Assembly: GCA_025360615.1 (NCBI GenBank)
Contig: JANYBX010000200.1
Location: forward strand, 1-40,141
Length of the DNA stretch: 40,141 nucleotides
From: Opitutia bacterium
GTDB taxonomy: Bacteria; Verrucomicrobiota; Verrucomicrobiia; Opitutales; Opitutaceae
Reading direction: 5' to 3'
The notes beneath the pieces were generated by a model. It was not told the origin of the DNA, did no database searches, and was given only the letters and a program-made list of their open reading frames with translations. Below, one piece after another: positions 29,409 through 39,876 of this stretch. The translations under genes were made by a program, and so were the position numbers. Numbering within the stretch: the first letter of the stretch is position 1; each line of letters begins with the position of its first letter.

Positions 29409-29978
29409 ATGTCCTTGCGAATTGTTCACTACAACGAACCCGTCCTCCGAAAAAAAGGCGAGAAGGTAACCAAATTTGACGACGCCCTGCGCGCCCTCGC
29501 CGCCGAGATGATCGCCACCATGCACGACGCCGCGGGCATCGGCCTCGCCGCGCAACAAGTCGGCCGCGCCCTCCAGCTCTGCGTCGTCGACCTAAGCGAG
29601 GCCGACGCCGATTTCACGTGGACGCTCGACGGCGCGAAACTGCCGCTCGACCTCATCATGCCCATGGTCATCGCCAACCCGGTCATCACCGTGGCCAAGG
29701 GCGCGCCGGAGGAAATCTTCGAGGAAGGCTGCCTGTCGTTTCCTAAAATCCGCGGCGATGTGAAACGCCCCGAAGCCATCACGGTGAAATACAAGGACGA
29801 GCGCGGCGGCGCCCACACCCTCGTGTGCAACGGTCTGCTCGCGCGGTGCATTCAGCACGAGGCCGACCACCTCAACGGCGTGCTCTTCATCGACCACATG
29901 ACCAAGAAAACGTTCGCCCAAATCGACGACGCCGTGAAAACCCTCGTGAAGGAAACCCGCGCCGCCGCGAAAAAATAA
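29409..29978 (+). CDS. def: Peptide deformylase
   Basis: 189 aa with all three deformylase motifs: GIGLAAQQVG (motif I, GxGxAAxQ), EEGCLSFP (motif II, EGCLS with metal-binding Cys) and IQHEADHLNG (motif III, HExDH with two metal-binding His and the catalytic Glu). It removes the formyl group from N-terminal methionine of new proteins in the cytoplasm, using Fe2+ or a similar metal. Length and motif spacing fit the type 1 enzyme. The usual partner fmt is not adjacent; the next gene is an oxidoreductase 104 bp downstream. Confidence 0.97.
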   Translation: MSLRIVHYNEPVLRKKGEKVTKFDDALRALAAEMIATMHDAAGIGLAAQQVGRALQLCVVDLSEADADFTWTLDGAKLPLDLIMPMVIANPVITVAKGAPEEIFEEGCLSFPKIRGDVKRPEAITVKYKDERGGAHTLVCNGLLARCIQHEADHLNGVLFIDHMTKKTFAQIDDAVKTLVKETRAAAKK

Positions 29979-30082
29979 GCGGACCGCATGGGCGGCCTTA
30001 CGCCGCGATTCAGAACCACCATCGCCGCGCCGAGCCTCTCGTTCATTCGCCGAACCGAATCCATCTCACCCGACCGAATCTC

Positions 30083-31162
30083 ATGAGCCAAAAATCCGAC
30101 GGCCAAAACTACGCCCCGCAAGGCAAACCCAGCCCCGTGGTGCAGCCCGGCGAATTCATTTTCGCCGCCGCCTACCTCGAGCACGGCCACATCTACGGCC
30201 AGTGCAACGGCCTGCTCGAAGCCGGTGCCGAGTTGAAATGGGTTTACGATCCCGATGTGACGAAAGTCGAAGCCTTCCGCGCGAAATATCCGCAGGCGCA
30301 AGTCGCGCGCTCCTTCGACGAAATCCTCGCCGACCCGGCCGTGAAACTCGTCGCCGCCGCCGCCATCCCGAGCGAGCGCGGTGCCATCGGCTGCCGCGTC
30401 ATGGAGGCCGGCAAAGACTACTTCACGGACAAGACTCCCTTCACCACGCTCGACCAACTCGATCAGGCCAAAGCCGTCGTCGCGCGCACCGGCCGCAAAT
30501 ACGCGGTGTATTATAGCGAGCGCCTCCACGTGGAGTCCGCGATGTTCGCCACCGACCTCGTCGCCAGCGGCGCCATCGGCCGCGTCATCCAAGTGCTCGG
30601 TCTGGGGCCACATCGTTTAGGGAAACCGGCGCGCCCGGCGTGGTTTTTCGAAAAAGCGAAATACGGCGGCATCCTCTGCGACATCGGCAGCCACCAGTTC
30701 GAGCAGTTCCTCACCTACTCCGGCGCGACCGATGCGATCATCACGCAGGCCGCCGTCGGCAACTTTGCCAACGCCGACACCCCTGAGTTCGAGGACTTCG
30801 GCGAAGCCTCGCTCCTCGGCAACAACGGCGCCTCGAACTACATTCGCGTCGACTGGTTCAACCCCGCCGGCCTCAGCACGTGGGGCGACGGCCGCACCGT
30901 CATCCTCGGCACCAAGGGCTACATCGAACTCCGCAAATACGTGGATGTCGCCCGCGAGAAATCCGGCGACCACGTCTACATCGTGGACGAAAAAGGCGAA
31001 CAACACCTCAACGTCACCGGGCAGGTCGGCTTCCGCTTTTTCGGCCAGCTCATGCTTGATTGTCTCAACCGCACCGAGAACGCGATGACGCAGGTCCACG
31101 CCTTCAAGGCCGCCGAACTCTGCATCCGCGCGCAACTCGCCGCGCGCAAAATTACGCCGTGA
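30083..31162 (+). CDS. Gfo/Idh/MocA family NAD(P)-dependent oxidoreductase
   Basis: 359 aa from ATG 30083; the longer ORF start lies inside def. The N-terminal Rossmann domain lacks the textbook GxGxxG and begins FAAAYLEHGHIYGQCNGLLEAGAELKWVYDPD, followed by ARSFDEILADPAVKLVAAAAIPSERG. The family EKP-like motif is replaced by DKTPFTTLDQL, and the catalytic region is YGGILCDIGSHQFEQFLTYSG with the conserved Asp and His. C-terminal strands match the Gfo/Idh/MocA fold. The missing glycine motif is seen in some members from this phylum. Substrates in the family are usually sugars, inositols or their acids. Confidence 0.85.
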   Translation: MSQKSDGQNYAPQGKPSPVVQPGEFIFAAAYLEHGHIYGQCNGLLEAGAELKWVYDPDVTKVEAFRAKYPQAQVARSFDEILADPAVKLVAAAAIPSERGAIGCRVMEAGKDYFTDKTPFTTLDQLDQAKAVVARTGRKYAVYYSERLHVESAMFATDLVASGAIGRVIQVLGLGPHRLGKPARPAWFFEKAKYGGILCDIGSHQFEQFLTYSGATDAIITQAAVGNFANADTPEFEDFGEASLLGNNGASNYIRVDWFNPAGLSTWGDGRTVILGTKGYIELRKYVDVAREKSGDHVYIVDEKGEQHLNVTGQVGFRFFGQLMLDCLNRTENAMTQVHAFKAAELCIRAQLAARKITP

Positions 31163-31169
31163 ACGCCGT

Positions 31170-31299
31170 GAACATCCAACGCTCAACATCGAACCTCCAA
31201 CGTCCAACGATTCGGAGAGACGCGTTTCTCCGCCGAGTGAGTGGAGGTTCGAAGTTGGATGTTGGATGTTGGAAGTTCGATGTTGGATGTTGGAAGTTC
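31170..31299. repeat. Long heptamer-based inverted repeat with inner palindrome
   Basis: The left arm (31173-31207) is built of seven-base units such as CATCCAA, CGCTCAA, CATCGAA, CCTCCAA, CGTCCAA. The right arm (31248-31296) is built of TTCGAAG, TTGGATG, TTGGATG, TTGGAAG, TTCGATG, TTGGATG, TTGGAAG, containing a perfect 21 bp direct repeat (31258-31278, 31279-31299). The arms are imperfect reverse complements over about 39 bp (31170-31208 against 31261-31299). Between them lies the near-perfect palindrome CGGAGAGACGCGTTTCTCCG (31213-31232). The right arm ends 6 nt before the GTG start of the adenosyltransferase. Confidence 0.9.
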
Positions 31300-31304
31300 C
31301 TCCC

Positions 31305-31829
31305 GTGAGCATCGCCACGCGCACCGGCGACGACGGCACGACCGGCCTCCTCTACGGCCAGCGGGTACGGAAAGATCACCCGCAGATCGAGGCCATCGGC
31401 GCGTTCGACGAACTGAACGTCGCCCTCGGCGCCGCAAAACCGCTCCTGACCGACGAGCACACGCGCGCGCTCATCGTCGCACTCCAGCAAAATCTTGTCG
31501 CACTCATGGGCGAGCTCGCCTGCGCCGAGGCGGACATCGCTCGCTACTCCGCGTCGAAGTTTGCGAAGATTTCCTTCGACGATGTCCAACGCCTCGATGC
31601 CGCCGTCGCCACGCTCGAAGCGCGCGGGTTAAAATTCGACGGCTGGGCCACGCCCGGGGCGAATGCACTCGGCTCCGCCTTCGACACCGCGCGCGTCATC
31701 GCACGCCGCGCCGAGCGCCGCCTCACCGCCCTGCCCGCGCACGGCCGCAGCGTGCGGCCAGAGCTGCGACAGTTCACCAACCGCCTCGCCGACCTGCTCT
31801 GGCTGCTCGCACGTCAGGCGGAGCAGTAG
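31305..31829 (+). CDS. pduO: Cob(I)yrinic acid a,c-diamide adenosyltransferase, PduO type
   Basis: 174 aa with a GTG start at 31305, giving the usual opening VSIATRTGDDGTTGLLYG. The family signatures are the ATP-binding TRTGDDGTTG, FDELNVALGAAK, the AFDTARVIARRAERR helix and the C-terminal QFTNRLADLLWLLAR. The enzyme transfers the adenosyl group of ATP to cob(I)alamin, making coenzyme B12. In-frame ATGs at 31266 and 31287 would translate part of the upstream repeat into nonsense residues, so GTG is preferred; a GGAAG in the repeat arm lies about 10 nt upstream and may serve as ribosome site. It is followed by a DUF6580 gene. Confidence 0.9.
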   Translation: MSIATRTGDDGTTGLLYGQRVRKDHPQIEAIGAFDELNVALGAAKPLLTDEHTRALIVALQQNLVALMGELACAEADIARYSASKFAKISFDDVQRLDAAVATLEARGLKFDGWATPGANALGSAFDTARVIARRAERRLTALPAHGRSVRPELRQFTNRLADLLWLLARQAEQ

Positions 31830-39442: not shown

Positions 39443-39482
39443 GCGGAATGTCCACCATGTGCGATGTATGAAGACTGATGTT

Positions 39483-39836
39483 CTAAACCGATTTTCGCGC
39501 CGTGCGGCGCATGGCGGAGAAAATTCGCACCAGCTCGCCGGCTTCCTTGCGCAACTCGACCAGCCGCGACTCGGGCAGAAAGGCTGCGCGCGCGATCAGC
39601 TCGATCCAGAACTCTGTTTCGTCCGCCTCCTCCAGCACGATGGCAAGCTTGTGGGCGAAATCCGCCCGGGACTTCGCGCGCTGCGTCGCCCGATAATTCG
39701 CGGCCACCGAGCACGCGCTGCGCGCGACCTGCGTCGCCACATTTTTTGCAGCCGCAGTCTTGGGCAGGCTCTCCGCCATCCGCATCACGCGGAGGGCAAA
39801 GATCATCGTCCGCTCGCACATCTCAGCCGGGTTCAT
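39483..39836 (-). CDS. Four-helix bundle protein (23S rRNA intervening-sequence protein family)
   Basis: 117 aa from ATG 39836, on the strand opposite to the nrt genes. The family signature is clear: RTMIFALRVMRMAESLPK, KNVATQVARSACSVAANYRAT, SRADFAHKLAIVLEEADETEFWIELI and LRKEAGELVRIFSAMRRTARK. These proteins form four-helix bundles, are found inside 23S rRNA intervening sequences and as stand-alone genes, and are related to the Avd accessory proteins of diversity-generating retroelements. Function unknown. It is flanked by CATC/GATG heptamer repeats and sits between nrtB and nrtD, which points to an insertion. Confidence 0.9.
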   Translation of the reverse strand: MNPAEMCERTMIFALRVMRMAESLPKTAAAKNVATQVARSACSVAANYRATQRAKSRADFAHKLAIVLEEADETEFWIELIARAAFLPESRLVELRKEAGELVRIFSAMRRTARKSV

Positions 39837-39845
39837 GCCTGATCC

Positions 39846-39876
39846 CATCACACATCAGCCATCGCTCATCAAACAT
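39846..39876. repeat. CATC heptamer repeat beside the four-helix gene
   Basis: Four consecutive seven-base units begin with CATC (CATCACA, CATCAGC, CATCGCT, CATCAAA), followed by CAT. A less regular GATG-rich stretch lies on the other side of the four-helix gene (about 39447-39480: GCGATG, CTGATG), so the flanks are roughly inverted copies. Confidence 0.7.

Follow-up and report, generated by a model that had tools for sequence, protein, structure and literature searches.

Repeat element upstream of the cobalamin adenosyltransferase gene

The window, that is, the whole stretch of 40,141 nt analysed here, contains a repeat element between two forward-strand genes: one encoding a GFO/IDH/MocA oxidoreductase (29825–31162; the start codon is uncertain and the longest open reading frame is given) and one encoding a cobalamin adenosyltransferase (31305–31829; PF01923, E = 2e-39), the latter in agreement with the assignment made earlier from the sequence alone (hereafter, the sequence-only reading). 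The left arm of the element (31170–31209, forward strand) consists of six (S)AACNYY heptamer cores (GAACATC CAACGCT CAACATC GAACCTC CAACGTC CAACG) with the outer end GAAC, and the right arm (31243–31299, forward strand), of eight heptamers in the inverted orientation (..GTTGGATG TTGGATG TTGGAAG TTCGATG TTGGATG TTGGAAGTTC) with the outer end GTTC. Tandem Repeats Finder identifies 31242–31299 at periods 7 and 21, and 31171–31209 at periods 7 and 14, confirming the 7-base periodicity initially proposed for both arms. The arms also pair over approximately 39 bp, as proposed, with mismatches at the variable position of the unit. The right arm ends 5 nt before the GTG codon (31300–31304, GTG at 31305), and not 6 nt, as was first counted.

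The 130-nt RNA of the element folds with an energy of −68 kcal/mol (z = −8.93), a value not equalled by any of 200 shuffled sequences, while the Rfam scan of the element yielded only a sub-threshold miRNA match (23.7 bits versus a gathering score of 98 bits). The 20-bp near-palindrome described between the arms is indeed present (CGGAGAGACGCGTTTCTCCG, 31213–31232), but it is specific to the window copy and hence is not a feature of the family: none was seen in any other locus examined. The hexamer CCGTGA occurs on both sides of the element, overlapping the upstream stop codon TGA (31157–31162) and the downstream start codon GTG (31303–31308). It is a candidate target-site duplication and may be regarded as suggestive; such a duplication would restore an overlapping stop/start GTGA prior to the insertion, given the pre-insertion state seen at the empty sites. 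In another genome (G022, L175), an ACCGTCC-type array is situated directly upstream of cobO, the adenosyltransferase gene that also follows the element in the window, and apparently is an independent insertion in the same spot.

The window also contains a second element (39457–39876, L022). It comprises an intact PF05635 gene of a four-helix-bundle protein on the reverse strand (39483–39851), a TGATGTG-type heptamer array to the left of the gene (39457–39481), and an array to the right (CATCACA.., 39846–39876) that is inverted relative to the left one. Thus, the period-7 arrays previously noticed beside a four-helix gene near 39846 are real, although degenerate, and this pointer of the sequence-only reading turned out to be decisive.

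Elements of the same type in the source genome

Three consecutive TTSRANG units were found 21 times in the 4.58-Mb draft genome, and the reversed pattern, not once; as these counts come from a pattern search, divergent types are missed. There are eight TTGGATG-type loci (two in contig C51 and one each in C113, C117, C132, which is the window, C166, C226, and C368), and a ninth match, in C458, is a lone direct array. In all eight loci the left arm is formed by repeated (S)AACNYY and the right arm by its complement, the outward polarity is constant, and the outer ends usually are GAAC..GTTC. Two outcomes had been named beforehand as speaking against the sequence-only reading, a single copy in the genome and loss of the heptamer phase between copies; instead, we observe eight loci with both the phase and the orientation retained.

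The interiors of these loci are mutually unrelated. The interior of the C113 element is a PF05635 gene (23S_rRNA_IVP, four-helix bundle), and a gene of the same subfamily lies between TTGGATG-type arms in genome G013 (L067); no gene other than PF05635 was seen inside matching arms. Hence the initial description can be refined: the family has gene-bearing members, and these encode PF05635. The window element has two inverted outward-facing arrays of units in the 6–8-nt range typical of the family and no PF05635 gene, while the same-type elements of C113 (in the source genome, G000) and L067 (G013) enclose one; therefore we call the window element a non-autonomous relative.

The C113 gene is the only PF05635 gene of this type in the source genome. 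It is frameshifted near the C-terminus, with homology apparently resuming in another frame, and the PF05635 gene of C543 has an in-frame TAG stop codon. The genome may have lost the ability to move its copies, assembly errors in the draft C113 and C543 sequences being also possible. Genome G035 has more than ten gene-less TTGGATG-type elements, but the seven PF05635 loci examined there are all of other repeat types. Thus, some copies are retained although no partner gene is visible.

Several other structures were also seen. The C117 locus (L005, 1500–1655) looks nested or composite, with the left arm of the TTGGATG type and the right arm of the TTAAACG type. Immediately next to the C113 element, at its right end, lies a long perfect hairpin (TGGAGGACGGAGTAATCTAGC..GCTAGATTACTCCGTCCTCCA; L004, about 1529–1578). 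Two stretches of L001 (about 1074–1122 and 1912–2018) have many dispersed matches in G013, G014, and G018 at 75–94% identity and apparently represent another intergenic repeat family.

Tandem arrays flanking PF05635 genes

For the PF05635 loci of the order (n = 70), the lag-7 score of the flanks exceeded the 99th percentile of the controls in 54 cases (mean 23.5 versus 7.6). Lags 4–6 and 9–13 were not raised, lag 8 was raised in 10 cases, and hexamers occurred in a small clade. Inverted flanking arms exceeded the control 99th percentile in 60 of the 70 loci; in 54, they also scored above the highest of the 600 controls. The unit sequence varies strongly between loci (GAGTAGC, ATTTTGG, GGAAGCC, GGCTGTG, TCGTTC, AAAGGCAC, and others) and is common to both arms within one locus. 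In genome G044 (L077, 1780–2000), a very long TTCTGTC array, far above five units, lies beside a PF05635 gene.

This tendency extends far beyond the order. Among 80 relatives gathered with a single PF05635 protein as the query and coming from about ten phyla, 63 have inverted arms; a period of 8 dominates in 51 cases and a period of 7 in 18, and units resembling AAAGGCAC are seen repeatedly. The phyla include Verrucomicrobiota, Bacteroidota, Nitrospirota, Desulfobacterota, and Planctomycetota, as well as KSB1/Caldithrix, Elusimicrobia, SAR324, Sumerlaeota, and a CPR lineage. Phage records contained no PF05635 relative of the L074 query.

The similarity of proteins is correlated with the similarity of arrays (rho = 0.23 after dropping same-site and same-genome pairs; null sd 0.038), none of 999 permutations yielding a value as high. 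As judged from these sequences, proteins and arrays are at least co-inherited; the linkage fits recognition of the units by the protein, and could also be plain co-inheritance.

Small GIY-YIG genes were considered as alternative residents of heptamer elements and rejected, as none of 13 such genes had arrays of the PF05635 type. In relatives (L219, L225), small GIY-YIG genes have inverted repeats of their own at the flanks (GTCATTCTGAGCGCAGCGAAGAATCC; TGGATCGCCGCGTCGCCACGCTCCTCGCGATGACG), and these loci perhaps represent another single-gene mobile element.

Filled and empty insertion sites

In all 12 other members of the genus (12/12), the site occupied in the window has no array, and the gap between the host genes is short, from a few bases to some tens. 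Thus, the window element was inserted at this site and, within the genus set compared, is present in the source genome only. The empty sites, together with the eight loci in the genome, support the initial proposal of a family whose elements are non-autonomous and either mobile or regulatory. That proposal placed the family in this lineage, but it extends to others.

Other chromosomal sites are occupied in some genomes and vacant in others. At livK–livH, an element is present in G007, G008, G015, and G032, G005 and G011 have it in decayed form, and eight genomes have none. In the homologous elements at this site, the unit has changed on both arms together (TTGAAAG, TTGAGAG, CTGAGAG). The ureA–ureB spacer contains TTGRATG-type elements of equal length, 105 nt, in G000 and G035, which belong to two genera; the arms persist and the interior has diverged. 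In the same spacer, G015 has an element of the ATTTTCG type, which is the PF05635 type of that genome, G022 has an ATTGCGG-type element, and G016, G020, and G024 have none. (The liv and ure names were assigned from the translated sequences and not by family search.) In G017, the spacer holds an inverted array of a longer unit (CCACGGATTTCACGGATC; L182, 2230–2460), and thus it hosts very different repeat elements across genera. Target duplications are not evident at most of the chromosomal copies compared, and decayed remnants of elements were found in L331, L112, and L113.

At the base level, insertions are resolved in cyanobacterial plasmids that are 97–98% identical and differ by one element. 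Plasmid C of Trichormus variabilis reads AAAAA-GTAAT-(element)-GTAAT-TAACAAAT, and its four relatives read AAAAA-GTAAT-TAACAAAT; the insert of approximately 423 bp comprises the arrays and the PF05635 gene only. The same element subfamily occupies a second site in the Nostoc plasmids pNsp_a, pC052_D, and pNPM1, with the TTCTA duplication relative to empty homologues, and a third site in Aulosira. The plasmid insertions are clean, approximately 415–423 bp long, with 5-bp target duplications; such a duplication is clear at two plasmid sites only, and the window has the 6-bp candidate CCGTGA.

We also considered the choice of targets adjacent to hairpins, as in group IIC introns, and dropped it: hairpins in the outer flanks were weakly enriched (z = −0.69 versus −0.09).

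Number of units and pairing of the arms

In the window-type elements (n = 24), exactly five AAC cores are present in 29 of 43 arms, mostly followed by a closing SAA. Five cores are also the mode for the 7-mer arms of the order (44 of 108) and for the 8-mer arms across phyla (42 of 102). As the mode is the same at both unit lengths, it is the count rather than the length in nucleotides that is preferred. The scoring thresholds trim short arrays, but at least six units are still clearly rarer than five. The arms of the window element, with six and eight units, are exceptions to this mode.

If the arms were selected for unit-by-unit pairing, their complementarity should exceed that of arms with permuted units. 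It did not exceed this null, and we rejected selection of this kind. Thus, recognition of the unit seems to be more important than exact complementarity of the stem.

PF05635 protein

To our knowledge, PF05635 genes, which are found in many phyla, have been without a function since the 1990s. They have been counted as CRISPR-associated, occurring in cas loci (PMC3936711, PMC10910872), they are scattered in CPR rRNA insertions (PMC11270868), and homology to Avd has been noted (PMC10053308). Solved members of the family form pentamers, with five chains in both 2rld and 2gsc, and the paper on 2gsc, going by its title, describes five four-helix bundles. The AlphaFold2 model of a window-type protein (pLDDT 90) matches 2rld, 2gsc, and Avd of diversity-generating retroelements (DGRs; 4dwl, 8ub7), one of the matches being to Avd within a DGR ribonucleoprotein. 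Residues Q42, R45, S49, and E79 (L024 numbering) are invariant in the alignment, and dN/dS is about 0.1 between elements at different sites, indicating purifying selection on the protein. Neither a recognisable catalytic domain nor another gene common to the elements besides PF05635 was found.

Possible mechanism and alternative explanations

We consider it probable that the window element belongs, as a non-autonomous member, to a mobile family encoding PF05635, whose pentameric protein likely binds one five-unit array at each end. The layout of the family, insertion into intergenic sites that are otherwise intact, duplications on plasmids, gene-less copies, the linkage of repeats and proteins, and the preference for five units all emerge from comparing sequences, as does the case for mobility; binding of an array by the ring is a prediction. 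A full-size member of approximately 420 bp would consist of a single PF05635 gene between inverted, outward-facing short tandem arrays. The homopentamer would bind an array of five units at either end, each subunit taking one unit, and the target would presumably be DNA or RNA in single-stranded form, or else an end that is melted or folded into a cruciform. The ring would then pair the two ends and promote transfer, possibly by recruiting a host or other transposase for the strand transfer step. Gene-less copies such as that of the window would be either moved in trans or relics. Inside an operon, transcription of an element would give a strong hairpin, which may affect the mRNA.

A more far-reaching version, which we put forward tentatively and with clearly less confidence, is that a homopentameric ring of four-helix bundles reads five tandem repeats per end and drives transposition with help from the host, the repeat co-evolving with the protein and its count being fixed by the symmetry of the ring; the GGGAATC heptamers of Xanthomonas would then be footprints of such elements. 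Dependence of the process on a reverse transcriptase was rejected. RVT_1 had no match in 9 of the 16 PF05635-rich genomes, one of them being the complete genome G015 with its eight PF05635 genes, and therefore no reverse transcriptase is required.

The elements might also resemble MITEs moved in trans by an unrelated transposase of the Y1/HUH REP type or the DDE type, with PF05635 as passenger cargo or a regulator. The number of Y1_Tnp genes indeed correlates with that of PF05635 genes (rho = 0.67, genomes at least 90% complete), and target duplications of 5–8 bp at some sites resemble products of DDE enzymes. However, both counts rise with genome size, Y1_Tnp is absent in 2 of the 16 PF05635-rich genomes, and the elements have no common fixed terminal sequence. 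Moreover, the repeat type follows the PF05635 lineage across phyla, which would not be predicted for a foreign transposase. Hence we regard this explanation as unlikely.

Still less probable, in our opinion, is that the element is a regulatory RNA hairpin, dispersed long ago and now retained in operons for stabilisation, processing, or attenuation of mRNA. The very stable fold (z = −8.9), the positions inside operons, and the retention of the ureA–ureB arms at 105 nt in two genera despite the diverged interior would agree with such a role. However, the window site is vacant in all 12 congeners with no replacement there, genera differ in the repeat type or have nothing at the same operon site, and beyond the consensus the pairing of individual units is not conserved. 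Finally, we can practically dismiss a simple repeat that arose by replication slippage and is no element at all, a possibility that the sequence-only reading had also disfavoured. Short tandem units do occur in other bacterial heptamer repeats (PMC4692102, PMC4679880), but slippage is contradicted by two inverted arrays of fixed outward polarity, a five-unit mode shared by 7-nt and 8-nt units, the link to a single gene family, clean insertions flanked by target duplications, and pairs of filled and empty sites.

Under the preferred reading, PF05635 as the single gene of mobile elements with tandem-array ends acquires a testable role, Avd would gain a relative with a simpler job, and unexplained heptamer repeats of bacteria are offered an origin. 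It also points to an unusual code of recognition, with five repeats read by a ring of five-fold symmetry. If the ring is the mobiliser, these elements, which have no recognisable nuclease, would rank with the smallest autonomous transposons, and if it were shown to drive transposition, the family would be categorically new.

Comparison with known systems

The family apparently has not been described, although its parts are known separately as the ORF of intervening sequences (IVSs) in 23S rRNA, Avd of DGRs, and the orphan heptamers of Xanthomonas. In the open-access literature, we found no account of PF05635 genes lying between tandem arrays; this is weak evidence, as subscription papers mostly lie outside it. 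Inverted ends made of tandem units are known in the Foldback elements of Drosophila, and TRAP is a ring-shaped protein that recognises short repeats at regular intervals; neither is known to have a sequence or a protein family in common with the elements considered here, and the likeness would be a functional analogy only.

Intergenic tandem arrays of 7-nt units, as seen here, have been described by Rehm et al. 2015 for GGGAATC in Xanthomonas and GGGGA(C/T)T in Nostoc (PMC4692102). In Xanthomonas, 70–75 inverted pairs are reported, most often with four units; the authors treat the heptamers as quadruplex-forming, and in the passages considered no link to PF05635 or mobility is drawn. As the protein Xcc0516 (PDB 2GSC) comes from X. 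campestris, its gene may sit in a GGGAATC pair. The TAACTGA repeats of Beggiatoaceae are likewise intergenic 7-nt tandem repeats near start codons, similar to the window element, but they are direct repeats of one sequence, with one inverted case reported (PMC4679880). The BrickBuilt MITE of Porphyromonas gingivalis is intergenic, non-autonomous, and contains tandem repeats, as does the window element; however, its 23-nt repeats are internal and accompanied by IS5-like terminal repeats, whereas here the arrays themselves are the ends (PMC4596501).

Avd is needed together with the reverse transcriptase for DGR retrohoming (PMC12875486). According to the model, the PF05635 protein has the same fold as Avd (4dwl, 8ub7), but DGRs have a reverse transcriptase, a template, and a variable repeat, which the elements considered here lack. 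IVSs of 23S rRNA with a conserved ORF (Ralph & McClelland 1993, cited in PMC3936711) also encode the PF05635 family and are inserted sporadically, but inside rRNA genes, while the elements described here are intergenic and occur both in chromosomes and on plasmids; in particular, the window element is situated between two protein-coding genes and not inside 23S rRNA. In this comparison, made by location, the elements described here have tandem-array ends, 5-bp duplications at the resolved sites, and gene-less copies.
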